21,990 nt of DNA. It comes from a virus. Within the stretch, counting starts at the first letter, position 1; every line of letters starts with the position of its first letter. Location: positions 1 to 21,990 of the IMG/VR virus record IMGVR_UViG_3300027851_000137; one strand, written 5' to 3'. The notes under the pieces are model-generated. The model was not told the origin of the DNA and ran no database searches. It worked only from the letters and a program-made list of their open reading frames with translations. This document shows positions 3,608 to 20,567 of this stretch, piece by piece. The position numbers were made by a program, and so were the translations under genes.

Positions 3608-3793
3608 TCATTGCCCGCCCTTCGGCACGCTCGCCTCGCGGATCATGCTGCTCTCGACGATCCCGCGCACGATGGCGGTAATGGTCTTCGCCCGCTCACG
3701 AGCGAGGCGCTCCAGCCATCGGTATTGCTTGGCGGTGAAGTAGACCTTCGTCTGGCGCATGCTGACGGGAGGCTTGATATGTGGATGTACCAT
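3608..3793 (-). CDS. Ribbon-helix-helix regulator, first gene of left operon
   Basis: A 61-residue protein. Seen: MRQTKVYFTAKQYRWLERLA (residues 12-31), then RERAKTITAIVRGIVESSM. This is a compact Arc/CopG-type RHH: strand (TKVYFT), helix, turn, helix ending in IVRGIVE. It begins the leftward operon, and three phased repeats lie immediately before its start, so it probably represses its own promoter. There is no Shine-Dalgarno before ATG 3793 or the alternative ATG at 3760 (residue 12). The promoter geometry puts transcription start two or three bases before ATG 3793, so translation may be nearly leaderless. The stop overlaps the open upstream extension of the next gene. Confidence 0.65.
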   Translation of the reverse strand: MVHPHIKPPVSMRQTKVYFTAKQYRWLERLARERAKTITAIVRGIVESSMIREASVPKGGQ

Positions 3794-3794
3794 G

Positions 3795-3825
3795 ATGGGG
3801 ACAGAATGGGGACAAAATGGGGACA
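3795..3825. repeat. Three phased 9-bp direct repeats (candidate operator)
   Basis: Three perfect copies of ATGGGGACA lie at 3795-3803, 3806-3814 and 3817-3825, spaced exactly 11 bp apart, which is about one helical turn. They cover the candidate -10 to -35 region of the leftward promoter and sit beside an RHH gene. RHH proteins typically bind arrays of short repeats on one face of the helix. Operator function is inference; the repeats are directly seen. Confidence 0.7.
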
Positions 3826-3830
3826 GTCAA
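3803..3830 (-). promoter_or_regulatory. Candidate leftward promoter of the RHH operon
   Basis: On the minus strand TTGACT (3830-3825) is followed after 16 bases by CATTCT (3808-3803). The -35 is good and the -10 is poor (3 of 6). Transcription start would fall near 3796, only two or three bases before the RHH ATG at 3793. The three 9-bp repeats overlie the promoter, which fits repression. Confidence 0.4.
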
Positions 3831-3845
3831 GAGAGACCTTGCCCG

Positions 3846-3874
3846 TTGACCTCTGCCGCCCCTCGGCATAGCCT
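3846..3874 (+). promoter_or_regulatory. Weak candidate rightward promoter for the primase gene
   Basis: TTGACC (3846-3851) and TAGCCT (3869-3874) are separated by 17 bases, ahead of the primase-helicase. The -10 matches the consensus at only three of six positions, so this is a suggestion. It would leave a leader of about 90 bases containing the 3900-3925 hairpin. Confidence 0.25.
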
Positions 3875-3884
3875 TGGCGTCCTA

Positions 3885-3925
3885 CCACAAAACGAAAGAC
3901 CCTCGGAGGTATCCGCCTCCGAGGG
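3885..3925 (-). terminator. Leftward intrinsic-terminator-like hairpin
   Basis: A perfect 10-bp stem (3900-3909 with 3916-3925; arms CCCTCGGAGG and CCTCCGAGGG) has a six-base loop. On the minus strand it is followed by TCTTTCGTTTTGTGG, a typical interrupted U tract. On the plus strand no U tract follows. It would stop leftward transcripts coming antisense from the primase gene before they enter the early operon, or act as a hairpin in the primase leader. Confidence 0.5.
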
Positions 3926-3968
3926 GTTCGTAGCCGTGCCAGCGGCTGGCCCACCAAGAAAGTGCAGC

Positions 3969-6383
3969 ATGAATCCCACGGTCCTCGACGCAAGTGTCTC
4001 CTACCACGCCGCCGGCCTCTCGGTTGTCCCTTGCTCAGCCTCGACCAAGCGACCGTTGGTCGGAGACTGGGAGCAATATCAAAAGATCCAGATCGATCGC
4101 CCCAGTCTCACACACGGCGTCCAGTCGTCGGGGGCCGTCGGCATCATCACCGGGTATGGAGACGTCGAGGCCATCGACTTCGACTTGAAGGGGTTCGCAT
4201 GGCGGGCATGGCGCGATTTGGTGCTTGAGGAAGACCCCGACCTCCTGCAACGGTGCTACGTCGAGCGGTCGCCCTCGGGCGGCTGGCACGTGGTTTACCG
4301 CTGCTCCGAGATTGAAGGGAACGTGAAGCTGGCCTCATACCGATTCCCCATCACGCAGGCGGGGGCCGGGCTGCTGCGGCGGCACGATCGCGACCTCCCC
4401 TATGTGGCGGAGGCAGGCGAGAAAGCCGGTGCGCTGATCGTCAAGCCCGGCGGCTCGACCAAGGGCTACGAGGTGCGCAAGGGCGTCTGCACCCTAGTGC
4501 CGATCGAGACGCGTGGGAAGGGTGGGTTCCTCGTCGTCGCGCCGACTCTGGGGTATGTGAAACAGTGGGGGGCGTTAGACGCCCTGCCCGTGTTGACACC
4601 GGGCGAACGCGCCGTGCTGATCGGTGCGGCACGGGCTATCGGCGACCGCGTCGAGGTGGTAGCTGAGGCGAAGGCGTCGCGGGGTGTAGTGGCCGGCGAG
4701 GAGCACAGGCCGGACGAATACGACGATGAGAACGACGATCGGATCGGCACCCATTTCAATAAGGTGGGCGACTACGCGGCGCTGCTGGAGGCGCACGGCT
4801 GGACGAAGCACGGAAAGGTTCGGGGACCTAATGAATATTGGGTGAGGCCGGGGAAGGATCGCCGCGACGGATGGTCGGCGTCCTGGCACACTGAGCAGCG
4901 GCTGTTCTACGTCTTCACCTCCTCGACCGTGCTGCGGATGTCGTGTGCGAAAGAGGAGCAGATGGCCGATGGGCAGGGCCATGCCTATAGTTATTTCAAG
5001 CTGTACGCCGAGCTGGAACACGACGGGGATTACAAGGCGGCGACGAAGCGGCTGATCAAGGACAATCCCGAGGTGGCGCGGGAATTGGAGATGAAAGGGT
5101 TGATGGCGGTGATCGCGGAGGAGAGCGTCGACGCGGAGGAGGCCGAGGCCATTAAGCAACAGATCGAGATGGACGCCGGCCGGCCAGCGATGTCGATCAA
5201 CCCGCCGCAGTTCCGCGTCTACATGGCGATTCGCATGTTCATGCGGAAGCGGAAGCTGACCTTCGACGCGTTGGAGAATATTCGCTGCAACGGCGAGCTG
5301 CACAGCATGGACATCAATCAGCTCGGGCTGGAGATCCTAACGAACATGCGCAATGAGCATGTGCCGTCCGCCGATGCCGTGCGCGACACCCTGCAAGTGC
5401 TGCGCGGGCGCGACGCACGTCGGCGGCGGGCTGAGATCGTGAAGGCGATGTGTGGGAAGCCGTCGACCGCTGAAGGGGAGCGCGAGCTGGAGAAGTTACT
5501 AGGGGCCGTCTCCGATGCATGGACGGAGACGGACAAGATAGCGTTGAAGCTGTTGATGTGGAATACGAAGGTTAAGCAGACCGGGGGATACGGTGAATCG
5601 CATCACTGCGTCGTGTTCTATAACCCGCATCAGGAAGCGGGGAAGTCAGTCATGGCGCGTAAATTCATATCGCCGTGGGGTGAATTATCAGTCGGCAAGT
5701 TCTCCATTAAATTCATTACCGACGAGCGCTGCACGCCAATGCTGTCGAAGCTGGCTATAGGCAATGTCGACGAGATGGCGGGCATGGACAAGGCCGACAT
5801 TGACGAAGTGAAAGGGACGATCACAGCGGCTCGGGCCATGTATCGCCCGATGCGAACGAACGATGCCGTTGAAGTTCCCATGATGATGTCGTTCGTCGCT
5901 ACCAGCAATAATCCTGTAAGCGAGTTGGTCCGCGATACATCAGGTAATCGACGGTTCTATGAGCTGAAGACGAAGCACACGTTGGACTGGGATGTCATTA
6001 ATAACATTGATTATGGGCTTGTATGGCAGGCAGTCTCCGAGAGCGATCGGTGCCCGGCATTTGACAACCGAGCCGGGCTACGGGCTGTGAATGCGAAGAC
6101 CGCTTATAAGGACAGCGTCGAGCAGTGGCTGGAATATGAGGACGACAACGCCGTCAACGGGGTGTGGGGAGAAAATAGCGTCGACCGTATTAATCCGGCT
6201 GACGGGGTTAAATATGAGGTGCTGTATGCTCGCTACGCGGCTTGGTGCCGGACATTTGAAATGCGCCCATTGGCGGGTAATAGGCTGGGCGGGAGACTAA
6301 CCGGGTTTTCCATGGGCTGGGAGATGCGCAAACCCCATGGACAGCCCCGGCGGTATTATCGGAACACGCTCGACGACCTTTGA
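3969..6383 (+). CDS. Prim-pol primase fused to VapE/SF3-like helicase
   Basis: An 804-residue replication protein. The N-terminal archaeo-eukaryotic prim-pol domain (about residues 5-220) shows SYHAAGLSVVPCS, the metal-binding AIDFDL (Asp70, Asp72), GGWHVVY with His107, and ETRGKGGFLVVAPT (180-193). The C-terminal helicase-like ATPase has a P-loop NPHQEAGKS (552-560; Lys559), Walker B LAIGNVDE (595-602) and an arginine-finger-like SGNRRFY (658-664), as in VirE/VapE proteins. It should unwind and prime phage DNA. The P-loop lacks the usual first glycine (Pro553 there). ATG 3969 was chosen because the domain begins right after it; an upstream in-frame extension to 3759 runs through control DNA. 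The SD (AAGAAAG) is weak. The middle, about 230-520, is a helical linker. Confidence 0.85.
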   Translation: MNPTVLDASVSYHAAGLSVVPCSASTKRPLVGDWEQYQKIQIDRPSLTHGVQSSGAVGIITGYGDVEAIDFDLKGFAWRAWRDLVLEEDPDLLQRCYVERSPSGGWHVVYRCSEIEGNVKLASYRFPITQAGAGLLRRHDRDLPYVAEAGEKAGALIVKPGGSTKGYEVRKGVCTLVPIETRGKGGFLVVAPTLGYVKQWGALDALPVLTPGERAVLIGAARAIGDRVEVVAEAKASRGVVAGEEHRPDEYDDENDDRIGTHFNKVGDYAALLEAHGWTKHGKVRGPNEYWVRPGKDRRDGWSASWHTEQRLFYVFTSSTVLRMSCAKEEQMADGQGHAYSYFKLYAELEHDGDYKAATKRLIKDNPEVARELEMKGLMAVIAEESVDAEEAEAIKQQIEMDAGRPAMSINPPQFRVYMAIRMFMRKRKLTFDALENIRCNGELHSMDINQLGLEILTNMRNEHVPSADAVRDTLQVLRGRDARRRRAEIVKAMCGKPSTAEGERELEKLLGAVSDAWTETDKIALKLLMWNTKVKQTGGYGESHHCVVFYNPHQEAGKSVMARKFISPWGELSVGKFSIKFITDERCTPMLSKLAIGNVDEMAGMDKADIDEVKGTITAARAMYRPMRTNDAVEVPMMMSFVATSNNPVSELVRDTSGNRRFYELKTKHTLDWDVINNIDYGLVWQAVSESDRCPAFDNRAGLRAVNAKTAYKDSVEQWLEYEDDNAVNGVWGENSVDRINPADGVKYEVLYARYAAWCRTFEMRPLAGNRLGGRLTGFSMGWEMRKPHGQPRRYYRNTLDDL

Positions 6384-9390: not shown

Positions 9391-9420
9391 ATTATATCCA
9401 CATGCGCTCTCATATGTCAA
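9391..9420 (-). promoter_or_regulatory. Consensus promoter of the middle leftward operon
   Basis: On the minus strand TTGACA (9420-9415) and TATAAT (9396-9391) both match the sigma-70 consensus six of six, with an 18-base spacer. It reads into nine packed genes and ends at the 6966-6997 terminator. This is the strongest promoter in the window by sequence and suggests an early, host-polymerase operon. Confidence 0.85.
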
Positions 9421-9731
9421 TCATTTATTAATCAGTCATTGATGGTATTAATCAGCATTAATCAGTTAATTCATATTATTAAATCATATGTTGCGTGCAT
9501 TAATCGTTGAATTAATTCGATAAATGCATTTCTATTTGCGTTCGATTTAAGCCATTATTCCAGGCTCCCCCGCCGCCAAGAAGGGTCCTACTAATTCGCG
9601 TAAATCCCTGGCGGTCGCGCCGCGCATCATCGAATTAATGTGCAAACGATAATTAAATATCATTTAGGTTCTCATCTAGTTCTCAATAAGGGAATAATTG
9701 ATTTCAGACAAGTCCCCAATAGGATCCTGGA
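9421..9731. other. Divergent control region, AT-rich with a GC-rich block
   Basis: No gene is visible. The left part (9427-9506) is AT-rich and carries three ATTAATCAG repeats plus a related ATTAATCG. The 9563-9640 block is GC-rich (CTCCCCCGCCGCC, later GGCGGTCGCGCCGCGC) with CCGCCA/TGGCGG arms at 9573-9578/9609-9614. AT-rich DNA then returns up to the TerS gene. No clear rightward promoter was identified. This is the likely switch region for late genes and, being upstream of TerS, a possible packaging site. Confidence 0.5.
9427..9506. repeat. Helically phased ATTAATCAG repeats
   Basis: ATTAATCAG occurs at 9427-9435, 9447-9455 and 9457-9465, i.e. 20 and 10 bases apart, and ATTAATCG at 9499-9506. 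Phasing by multiples of about one helical turn beside a strong promoter suggests a regulator's binding array. Confidence 0.6.
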
Positions 9732-12386: not shown

Positions 12387-12887
12387 TTGTCGGATCTGCG
12401 CGAAGTTCCCGGCTTCAACCGCTACTTAGCGGATTCGAAAGGGGTGTTGTACACCCGCAAAGGGAGGATCATCAGGGGCTGCAAAGATAAAGTCGGCTAT
12501 CTCGTGACGACCCTTCGCGACGATCAAGATAGAAAGCGAAATTTCTATATCCATAGGGCAGTGGCTCTTGCTTTCTTAGGTATTCCAGAGGAAGGGTTCG
12601 ACACCGTCGATCATATCGACGGGAATAAATCGAATAATAAAATAGAAAATCTCAGGTGGCTTTCTCTTTCTGAAAATGTCGTGCTCGGGATGTTAAGAAA
12701 TGGTCGCAGATTCAGCGACAATGAGATACGCGATATCCGTGAGATGGCCAAAGATGGGTTTGTGTACGCGATGATTGCTGAAAAATACAACGTCAGCGCC
12801 GATAGAATAATAACAGCGGTTTTCAATAATTACGATAAGGTGGGTGGCAAACCTGAGCGTCGTGGGCAGAAGAAAGGGCACAGATGA
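12387..12887 (+). CDS. HNH homing-type endonuclease (NUMOD4-like plus HNH)
   Basis: A 166-residue product starting at TTG 12387 behind GGGAGGAAAG. N-terminal EVPGFNRYLADSKGVLYTRK (residues 6-25) is NUMOD4-like. The nuclease core has His56 (YIHRAVALAF) and DHIDGNKSNNKIENLRW (75-91), the HNH_3 pattern of phage homing enzymes. Residues 108-146 (FSDNEIRDIREMAKDG…IAEKYNVS) form a helix-turn-helix-like DNA-binding end. It sits between terminase and the head genes behind a 95-base gap and has more AT-rich codons than its neighbours, as expected for an inserted selfish gene. A helper role in packaging, as for some terminase-linked HNH proteins, is an alternative. Confidence 0.85.
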   Translation: MSDLREVPGFNRYLADSKGVLYTRKGRIIRGCKDKVGYLVTTLRDDQDRKRNFYIHRAVALAFLGIPEEGFDTVDHIDGNKSNNKIENLRWLSLSENVVLGMLRNGRRFSDNEIRDIREMAKDGFVYAMIAEKYNVSADRIITAVFNNYDKVGGKPERRGQKKGHR

Positions 12888-17397: not shown

Positions 17398-17814
17398 ATG
17401 AGCATTGTCCGTGCGCGAACAAAATCATACGGGCCAGCCCTTCTCGACATCCAAATCGAGCAGGGTGCCGACTTCTATCTCCCCTTCGAGCTGAGTCGCG
17501 GCGGCTCGCCATGGGATCTGACCAACTGCACACTGGAAGCACACTTCTCGCTAGCGTGGTCGCCAGGAGAGGCATGCGTCGATCTGGAGGTGATTGTCAA
17601 GGACGCACTGGCTGGAACGTGCAAAATCAAGTTCCCCGCTGCGTCGTCGCTCAACCTCGTTCTTCCATCCCCTCCGCGTAAGACCGTTGAGCCGTCGGTG
17701 TTCCAACTCGGCGGGTGGGTCTTCAACGTCACCGACCCATCAATAACTGACTGCCCAACCAAGCGCATGGCCGAAGGCATCGTGCAGATGGATCGTGACC
17801 CATGCCTGGCATAG
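17398..17814 (+). CDS. Phage protein preceding the tail fibre, 138 aa
   Basis: Product begins MSIVRARTKSYGPALLDIQI, then EQGADFYLPFELSRGGSPWD, LTNCTLEAHFSLAW and a final GGWVFNVTDPSITDCPTKRM. This fits a beta-sandwich protein often found just upstream of tail fibres in phages ('IEQGA.F…..D.TG.T….' followed by a Y/W-D-(L/V) strand). Function is not established; adsorption-apparatus assembly is a guess from position. It overlaps the fibre start by 13 bases, so the two are probably translated together. Confidence 0.55.
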   Translation: MSIVRARTKSYGPALLDIQIEQGADFYLPFELSRGGSPWDLTNCTLEAHFSLAWSPGEACVDLEVIVKDALAGTCKIKFPAASSLNLVLPSPPRKTVEPSVFQLGGWVFNVTDPSITDCPTKRMAEGIVQMDRDPCLA

Positions 17815-20567
17815 AAATCACCGTCCCTACGCAGCCCGAGATCACCATTGCGGTGACGGACGAAACCGTCGAACTGAATCTCGTCTACATCAGTGCCGAC
17901 CCAGCGTTCGTACATAACGACCTAAATGGACGCAGCACTGCCGATGCTCATCCTCAATCAGCCGTCACTGGGCTGGTGGCTGATCTCGCGCTGAAGGCTC
18001 CGCTGGCTTCCCCTGCGCTCACAGGGGTTCCGACTGCCCCCACTGCCGTTCCGAACACATCGACGACGCAAATAGCCACAACGGCATTCGCCAAGGCCGA
18101 GGCTGACGCGGCAGAAGCCGTGGCCATTGCGGCGAGCGACCCTGTCGGATCGGCTGCGGCGGCGCAAGCGTACGCCATTCAGCGTGCCAATCACACGGGG
18201 ACGCAGCTCGCAGCGACGATTTCAGATTTCGTAGCTGCAGCTCTCGCAGCGACAATTGCGGCTTACGATCCGGCAGGATCCGCGGCGGCGGCGCAAGCGT
18301 ATGCCGTACAACGGGCAAACCACACGGGCACACAGCTAGCTGCGACCATTAGTGACTTCGGTTCGGCTGCGTTGGCAGCGACGGCTGCAGCCTACGACCC
18401 CGCAGGATCAGCAGCGGCGGCACAGGCGGCCAGTCAACCCCTCGACGCCGATCTAACGGCCATCGCAGCCCTTACGACAACCGCCTACGGTCGCGGATTC
18501 CTGCCGCTCGCTGACGCCGCTGCCGCACTGACCTACATCGGCGCCCAGGTGGCCGGCAGCTACCAGCCGTCGGACGCGACCCTGACCGCCCTGGCTGGCA
18601 CCGTCTTCGGAGCCAACGGTCAGGTGCTGATTAGCACGGGTAGCGACTTCGCCTGGTCAGGCGCGTCCCTGACCTACGTCTCCTCCGTCCTCGCCGGCTC
18701 TGGCGGCACCGCCCCCAGCGCCCGTGCGGCGACGGAGTGGGCAACGGCAGGCGGCGTTGGTCGGTGGGGCACGCAGGTGCGGTGCGATGGCACGGCGGCG
18801 GATTCGATCCTGACGGCGGGCGGCGCTGGCATATCTGGCCATGTCGCCATCGGCGCCGCAGCATCGGTAAGCGCCGATTATCTGCTGACCGTGGCAGAGA
18901 ACTACACGGGCAGCGCTGCTGTATTCCGCGGTGTCCGGATCCAGTCCACCCACAGCACACCGGCAGCAGCCTCTGCATCCACCGGCCTTGATGTAATCCA
19001 CACGACCGCCGGCACGAACGGCATGGACCACATCGTCAGCGGCCAGTTTCGCGGCACGGCCGGCGGGACGGGCACGCTGACTTGGGCCTATGCCGTCCAT
19101 GGCAACATGGGCGTCGATGGGCGAACCGTTACGAATCTGGCGCAGCTGTACGCCTATAATGCGCCAGTGACATCGGGGACTGTCGCGAAGAAATACGGCT
19201 GCTTCGTTGAGCTGCAGACCGGCGGAACCGAGAATTGGGGCCTATACTCCGAGGACCGCAACAACGCGCTCGGCAAGGCCGGGGTCCAACTCAACATCGG
19301 TCAGAGCGGGACGAATTATCCATCTATCGGATATAATGTTTTGTACGGCGGCACTGGCGGCGCGTGGACCTCCCGCATCACCGATCGTTGCCATATGCTG
19401 GATTTCGGCGGGTCGGGGGCAACTGCATTCACATTTAAGTCGAGCGCCTCCGTAGCAGCTGGCGGCGCGATAACCTGGACAACGCTCGGAACGTGGACGA
19501 CGTCACTGCTCACCGTTAATACCGCCACAACGCTAACCGCTGCGCTGACGGCTACCAGCATCACCATGGCCGGCGCGCTGTCGGGCGTGACGACGCTGAC
19601 TAGCAGCGGCAATGCCGCCATTGCCCAGACCGCTGCTTCACTGGGCGTCACCGCCCGCCTGCGCGTCGATGCTCCGAACAGCAACACCGGACCTGCCCTG
19701 GCGATTGTGGCTGATTCAGTCGGTCGTGGATTTGGCCTGTACGGCGCAGGATACGTGGATGGCGTGTCCGGATCCGCGATGGTCATCAACACCACCGCCA
19801 GCGGTGCCGCGTGGTATGTGTTTACGACCGGCAACACAGTGGCCGGTGTTCTGGCGCTGCCGCAGTCCGCCGTCATCGGCACCACCGCCCTCGTCAGCAC
19901 CGAGCGCGCCCGTATCGCGGGCGGCACCGACGCGACCACGATCACACCCGGAGCGACGGACTTCCTGGTCGGCGGCGGTGGCGCGCACCTGGGCGGGAAT
20001 CTTAAGATCGCCGGAACGACGACGGTGGCGAATGGGTCGGCCGGCGCCCCCGGCCTGCGCTTGGCGTCTGACATTCACGGGCTGTATCGCGCTGGCTCCA
20101 CGACTCTCGGCATATCCGTCGCTGGAGTTGCCGCGCTAAATATCGGTGCGCCATCTGCTGGGTTTGGTGGCGGATTCCAGATCCAGTGCCCAGTTGACGG
20201 TGATGTCGGGTATATCTATCCGTCGCGCAACACAAGCAGCATAGACCTGTACGGCGGCACATCAGCCAGTACCGGCGCGCATGTTCGTGTCTACGGGGCC
20301 AGCCATGCGAGCAAGGCTAGCAACGTAGAAATCACCAACGGAAATACAGCCAGAATCACTATCGACGGGGCCGGCAACATCGTCTGCGGTAGCGCGGCGC
20401 TAGCCACGACTGCCACAGACGGGTTCCTGCACATCTCCTCGTCGGCCGGCGCACCGACAGGCGTTCCCACCGCATCAACTGGCCGCGTCCCCATCCATAT
20501 CGACACCACGAACATCCGCATCTACGCCTATATTGGCGGGGCGTGGAAGTACGCAGCCCTGATCTGA
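17802..20567 (+). CDS. Tail fibre / receptor-binding protein, 921 aa
   Basis: Near the N-terminus, LKAPLASPALTGVPTAPTAV followed by TSTTQIATTAFAKAEAD is a classic tail-fibre module. Three copies of a 43-residue unit start at residues 113, 156 and 199 (DP-GSAAAAQA opening; the first two continue RANHTGTQLAATISDF, the third is cut short). The rest is Gly/Ser/Thr/Ala-rich beta-repeat, with no intramolecular chaperone recognised, ending in NIRIYAYIGGAWKYAALI, a common fibre C-terminus. It should form a trimeric shaft and tip that bind the host surface. It follows the head genes directly with no tail-tube genes in between. Repeats in DNA are near-exact (129 bp). Confidence 0.8.
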   Translation: MPGIEITVPTQPEITIAVTDETVELNLVYISADPAFVHNDLNGRSTADAHPQSAVTGLVADLALKAPLASPALTGVPTAPTAVPNTSTTQIATTAFAKAEADAAEAVAIAASDPVGSAAAAQAYAIQRANHTGTQLAATISDFVAAALAATIAAYDPAGSAAAAQAYAVQRANHTGTQLAATISDFGSAALAATAAAYDPAGSAAAAQAASQPLDADLTAIAALTTTAYGRGFLPLADAAAALTYIGAQVAGSYQPSDATLTALAGTVFGANGQVLISTGSDFAWSGASLTYVSSVLAGSGGTAPSARAATEWATAGGVGRWGTQVRCDGTAADSILTAGGAGISGHVAIGAAASVSADYLLTVAENYTGSAAVFRGVRIQSTHSTPAAASASTGLDVIHTTAGTNGMDHIVSGQFRGTAGGTGTLTWAYAVHGNMGVDGRTVTNLAQLYAYNAPVTSGTVAKKYGCFVELQTGGTENWGLYSEDRNNALGKAGVQLNIGQSGTNYPSIGYNVLYGGTGGAWTSRITDRCHMLDFGGSGATAFTFKSSASVAAGGAITWTTLGTWTTSLLTVNTATTLTAALTATSITMAGALSGVTTLTSSGNAAIAQTAASLGVTARLRVDAPNSNTGPALAIVADSVGRGFGLYGAGYVDGVSGSAMVINTTASGAAWYVFTTGNTVAGVLALPQSAVIGTTALVSTERARIAGGTDATTITPGATDFLVGGGGAHLGGNLKIAGTTTVANGSAGAPGLRLASDIHGLYRAGSTTLGISVAGVAALNIGAPSAGFGGGFQIQCPVDGDVGYIYPSRNTSSIDLYGGTSASTGAHVRVYGASHASKASNVEITNGNTARITIDGAGNIVCGSAALATTATDGFLHISSSAGAPTGVPTASTGRVPIHIDTTNIRIYAYIGGAWKYAALI
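18138..18426. repeat. 129-bp tandem coding repeats in the fibre gene
   Basis: Units begin at 18138, 18267 and 18396, exactly 129 bases apart; the last is partial (…GSAAAAQAAS). They encode near-identical shaft modules that differ mostly at synonymous or small-residue positions. Such arrays recombine and can change shaft length. Confidence 0.8.

Follow-up and report, generated by a model that had tools for sequence, protein, structure and literature searches.

Arc of phage P22 binds two half-sites about one turn apart, and the operator of the lambda repressor cI spans its promoter region. Autoregulation by viral RHH proteins is a well-known mechanism and an unremarkable one. Such proteins often bind across the start site or the promoter of their own genes (PMC5569661). 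For instance, the sites of F55, an RHH protein of Sulfolobus virus SSV1, are tandem repeats with an 11-base consensus, and they lie in early promoters including its own (PMC5569661). One report on plasmid pMV158 describes copG as cotranscribed with the rep gene (PMC5717011). In addition, lambda cI is made from a naturally leaderless mRNA (PMC4965119).

The locus described here lies in the virus record IMGVR_UViG_3300027851_000137, a fragment of 21,990 bases that was analysed as a whole and is called the window below (Table 1). It resembles the F55 system in that a viral RHH protein goes together with tandem repeats, which have an 11-base consensus there and an 11-bp period here. However, F55 belongs to an archaeal virus, the repeat sequence differs, and binding at our locus is predicted. 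Furthermore, F55 sites occur in several early promoters, whereas none was found at other promoters in the window. The predicted fold of the 61-aa protein matches both CopG and Arc, and the protein shares with CopG the arrangement of a small RHH protein beside a replication gene. However, copG and rep are reported to be cotranscribed (PMC5717011), whereas the RHH and Rep genes are divergent here. In addition, the sites of CopG and Arc are palindromic or pseudopalindromic, whereas our array consists of direct repeats. Lambda cI is alike as a phage repressor with a leaderless mRNA and an operator across its promoter region, but it is a larger, two-domain helix-turn-helix protein, and the start site at our locus is a predicted one.

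Table 1. Coordinates of the features at the RHH/Rep locus
Feature	Position	Strand	Basis
Array of 3 x ATGGGGACA, candidate operator	3795..3825		Exact matches, TRF score, shuffles
61-aa predicted RHH protein, first gene of leftward operon	3608..3793	-	ORF; Pfam; structure comparison
Candidate RHH promoter	3803..3830	-	-35 TTGACT 3830-3825, spacer 16, -10 CATTCT 3808-3803; 8/12 consensus positions
Candidate Rep promoter, TTGACC-17-TAGCCT	3846..3874	+	8/12 consensus positions; back to back with RHH promoter
Conserved hairpin, downstream of Rep promoter and upstream of Rep start	3888..3930		Terminator scan, RNA fold, conservation in G001
Replication protein (Rep), Prim-Pol and VapE-like helicase domains	3969..6383	+	Pfam, PHROGs

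The preliminary description reported three perfect repeats at an 11-bp period, and our analysis agreed with it. The copies of ATGGGGACA occupy 3795-3803, 3806-3814 and 3817-3825 on the plus strand, with GA and AA as linkers, and the 11-bp units differ from each other by one base only. In the direction of the leftward gene, the unit reads TGTCCCCAT. Tandem Repeats Finder detected the array with a score of 57. When the window was shuffled 100 times with a second-order Markov model, no shuffle had a triple of identical 9-mers at periods of 9-15. The window holds no exact copy outside the array. When one mismatch was allowed, only three more matches were found in 22 kb, and the total of six is the chance level for single copies. 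Thus, the signal of the array is its phasing, not the motif count. The first repeat had also been placed just past the start codon, which was correct: one base (3794) separates it from the RHH ATG (3793-3791, minus strand). Furthermore, the array overlaps the -10 and start region of the candidate RHH promoter. A coding-driven repeat was ruled out because the period of 11 is not a multiple of 3. A G-quadruplex was also considered and rejected, as there are just three G-runs; a search of the array for single-strand structure found none.

The 61-aa protein is predicted to have the RHH fold, as had been proposed. Pfam returned only RHH_7, with an E-value of 0.06 that falls below the cut-off. The AlphaFold model built from three sequences has an extended segment and two helices; this model was used for the structure comparison, and an earlier two-sequence model was one long helix. 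When the model was compared with the PDB by Foldseek, the top matches were almost all RHH proteins, including Arc, ParG, AmrZ, CopASO, ORF56 and CopG. With so short a chain the E-values were poor (0.16 and above); the evidence is the consistency of the match list. The stop codon of the RHH gene overlaps the start of the next gene by 4 bases, which is operon-like. No relatives of the protein were found in IMG/VR by pattern search or among GenBank phages.

The same leftward operon includes a second possible RHH/MobC-like protein of 114 aa at 797-1141 (Pfam MobC_2, E-value 0.011, below the cut-off). The array could therefore serve as an operator for some other regulator, either a host repressor or a phage protein such as this one; it does lie in a promoter region, and its motif recurs in unrelated genomes. 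However, the nearest DNA-binding gene is that of the 61-aa RHH protein itself, 2 bp away, and the window has no further motif copy of the kind that would suit a global regulator. We regard this explanation as unlikely.

The TTGACT…CATTCT sequence claimed as a promoter under the array is present, and as a candidate promoter it is weaker than had been stated. Its -35 hexamer agrees with five of the six consensus positions and its -10 hexamer with three of six, A2 and T6 being kept, and at 8/12 overall it was not reported by the stricter 9-of-12 consensus scan. Among random 75-mers, about 0.3% had an equally good match that ended 5-12 bp from their end, so the placement of the match before the gene is suggestive. 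From the geometry of this weak promoter, the RHH transcript would start at about 3796, two or three bases before the ATG. At +1.5 kcal/mol, the Shine-Dalgarno energy of the RHH gene ranks last among 25 genes, whose values mostly fall between -3 and -10. An alternative start at codon 12 is also without a Shine-Dalgarno site (+0.1), and the counterpart gene in the relative G001 has one (-7.3). The absence of such a site fits a leaderless mRNA and is no proof of it. Thus, the near-leaderless start suggested in the preliminary description is compatible with the missing site, while the start position itself comes from promoter geometry.

Given its position, its phase and the adjacent RHH protein, the favoured explanation is that the array is an autoregulatory operator of the 61-aa protein. 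We infer the binding, the repression, the start site and the effect on Rep, and we give the operator reading a probability of about 0.45. The value stays there because the arrays linked to integrases show that the motif does not single out an RHH protein as its binder. RHH dimers would occupy the three 9-bp sites from the same side of the helix, the 11-bp period being about one turn. The bound protein would cover the -10 and start region of its own weak promoter, and as it accumulated it would turn the leftward early operon off. The mRNA would begin at the ATG, or two to three bases before it, and would be translated leaderless. In addition, two polymerases at the back-to-back RHH and Rep promoters would hinder each other, and repression of the RHH promoter may indirectly free the Rep promoter. 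In favour of the operator reading are the array over the gene's own candidate promoter, the predicted RHH fold, the Shine-Dalgarno energy, the gene layout in G001, the array in the unrelated phage G006 and the literature. Against it are the absence of the array from G001, the arrays linked to integrases and att repeats elsewhere, the poor -10 hexamer and the fact that the G006 protein is RHH by pattern only.

It had also been proposed that the array acts as a switch linking the early operon to the replication gene; this would follow from promoter geometry and was not supported. The likely Rep promoter lies beyond the array, which is about 56-86 bp upstream of the predicted Rep transcript start, and thus direct occlusion of Rep is unlikely. 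There are 15 bp between the two -35 hexamers, so polymerase competition would be plausible. The only matches of the Rep protein were distant ones to phage primase/polymerases (Arthrobacter and Cellulophaga), with about 26-30% identity across 43% of the query, and a pattern search of IMG/VR found no relatives. On the minus strand, the hairpin before the Rep gene is stable and resembles a terminator, U-rich tail included; on the plus strand it is a leader hairpin. Its RNA fold z values are -3.0 in the window and -3.4 in G001. It would keep leftward read-through from reaching the RHH promoter. The 196-bp intergenic region showed no similarity to phages or plasmids, and neither Rfam elements nor tRNA were found in the window.

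The three direct repeats precede a primase/helicase gene and have a conserved hairpin nearby, and they might also be iterons bound by the divergent Rep as part of a replication origin. However, no AT-rich stretch adjoins the array (GC about 59-62%), and there is an AT-rich stretch with repeats of its own at 9420-9545. Furthermore, the hairpin region of G001 lacks such repeats, although the Rep of G001 differs. This explanation is improbable, slightly more so than that of another regulator. As a separate observation, the region 9391-9545 includes a perfect TTGACA-18-TATAAT promoter (minus strand, 9420-9391) and, just upstream of it, ATTAATCAG repeats at about 10 bp (9427-9465) in AT-rich sequence. 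This is likely a main early promoter, accompanied by an operator array or origin of its own.

A search with the TerL protein found three relatives (59-72% identity), and a search with the capsid protein found two more. Among these, the early region is present only in G001 (38.5 kb); another relative, G004, carries a different replication module. G001 keeps the layout: a gene for a 57-aa RHH-like protein and a VapE-type Rep gene are divergent, the conserved hairpin lies between them, and where the Rep promoter aligns, the sequence reads TTGCGG-17-TAGTCT. The hairpin element TACCAC(A/C)AAACGAAA plus CCTCCG is conserved between 3888-3930 of the window and 7850-7895 of L020, while the Rep proteins are quite different. 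A scan of IMG/VR for the AAACGAAA hairpin element found only G001. However, the TGGGGACA array, which was expected next to the same gene in related phages, is absent from G001. The two RHH proteins are just 24% identical, without a BLASTP match, so a different operator site is expected in G001. Its RHH promoter region includes the near-palindrome TATGACAAGTTTTCATA, whose score was matched in 24 of 500 shuffles, a weak signal, and which could be the own operator of that gene; it is the sole candidate there. A TerL-based prophage search of bacterial genomes found none.

Two further observations concern the rest of the window. An ORF like an HNH homing endonuclease (12387-12887) lies between the large terminase gene and the next gene, and the relatives L007, L008 and L009 are without one there. 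In addition, a 129-bp tandem repeat with 2.2 copies (18147-18428) lies within a 921-aa ORF (17802-20567), which is probably a tail fibre.

Similar arrays occur in other genomes. Exact three-copy arrays were found in four genomes of different phyla, outside larger genes, and an 8-mer version was found in six virus contigs. In G006, three copies of TGTCCCCA at 11 bp lie about 40 bp upstream of a gene for a 78-aa protein and have the orientation of the array in the window. This protein is RHH-like only by pattern, and no tyrosine or serine recombinase was found in this phage. G006, which is unrelated, thus lends support to the operator reading, but near-identical arrays elsewhere adjoin integrase genes and att repeats. 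When the motif pair was compared with a reversed control in 398 genomes, the query genome aside, it turned up in nine places and the control in two. In a second phylum, the pair was found in three places outside the query genome with no control hits; all of these places are within open frames, which may or may not be genes. IMG/VR has four matches to the exact 9-mer pair; none was accepted as a homologous operator, because three lie within coding frames of unrelated genes and the fourth immediately follows a gene in a Helicobacter-like prophage. A literature search by the motif letters gave incidental matches only. In a Selenomonadales genome (L030, 1775-2000), we also saw a GGGGACA array and, after it, a long series of GTTACA/GTGACA units spaced by about 10-12 bp.

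The array could also be a recent neutral tandem duplication of the 11-bp unit, without function. The small difference between units, the lack of an array in G001 and the scatter of similar 11-bp tandem arrays through unrelated genomes are in line with this. However, the array lies exactly over the promoter of a gene for a DNA-binding protein, and the excess of the motif pair over its control (nine places versus two) speaks against a neutral origin. We consider neutral duplication about as unlikely as control by another regulator.

Meanwhile, TGGGGACA pairs or triples at 11 bp were found near tyrosine-integrase genes in four records (L063, L065, G007 and G010). One genome has a pair of arrays 15.5 kb apart, together with a 73-bp direct repeat that overlaps a tRNA gene, and phage G010 has arrays near both ends, with a 17-bp terminal repeat. 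These arrays are probably arm-type sites of the integrases. More widely, TGGGGACA arrays spaced at 11 bp adjoin tyrosine-integrase genes in L061, L063, L065, L069, L070 and L071, and two of these also have duplicated att-like repeats. By this likeness, the repeats in the window might be arm-type sites of a tyrosine integrase within an attachment site, although the arm-type role of those other arrays is itself a deduction. However, no integrase or serine recombinase (PF00589 and PF00239) was found in G001 or in the window, which is a fragment, so that an integrase may lie outside it; no integrase, att repeat or tRNA was found near the array, nor any tRNA in the window as a whole, and the neighbours of the array are the RHH and Rep genes. 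Arm-type sites are a less likely explanation than iterons. Least likely, and quite speculative, is the idea that the TGGGGACA array with its 11-bp phase is a portable module, read by RHH repressors in integrase-less phages and by integrase arm domains at att sites, one kind of protein having taken over the sites of the other.

The arrays beside integrases and att repeats are a caution against assigning operators by proximity, and they are a lead to attachment sites. If the operator reading is true, the locus would provide a compact RHH repressor-operator pair that is easy to test, in a phage group that has no characterised regulators. Furthermore, it would combine an operator made from direct repeats rather than a palindrome with a leaderless repressor mRNA.
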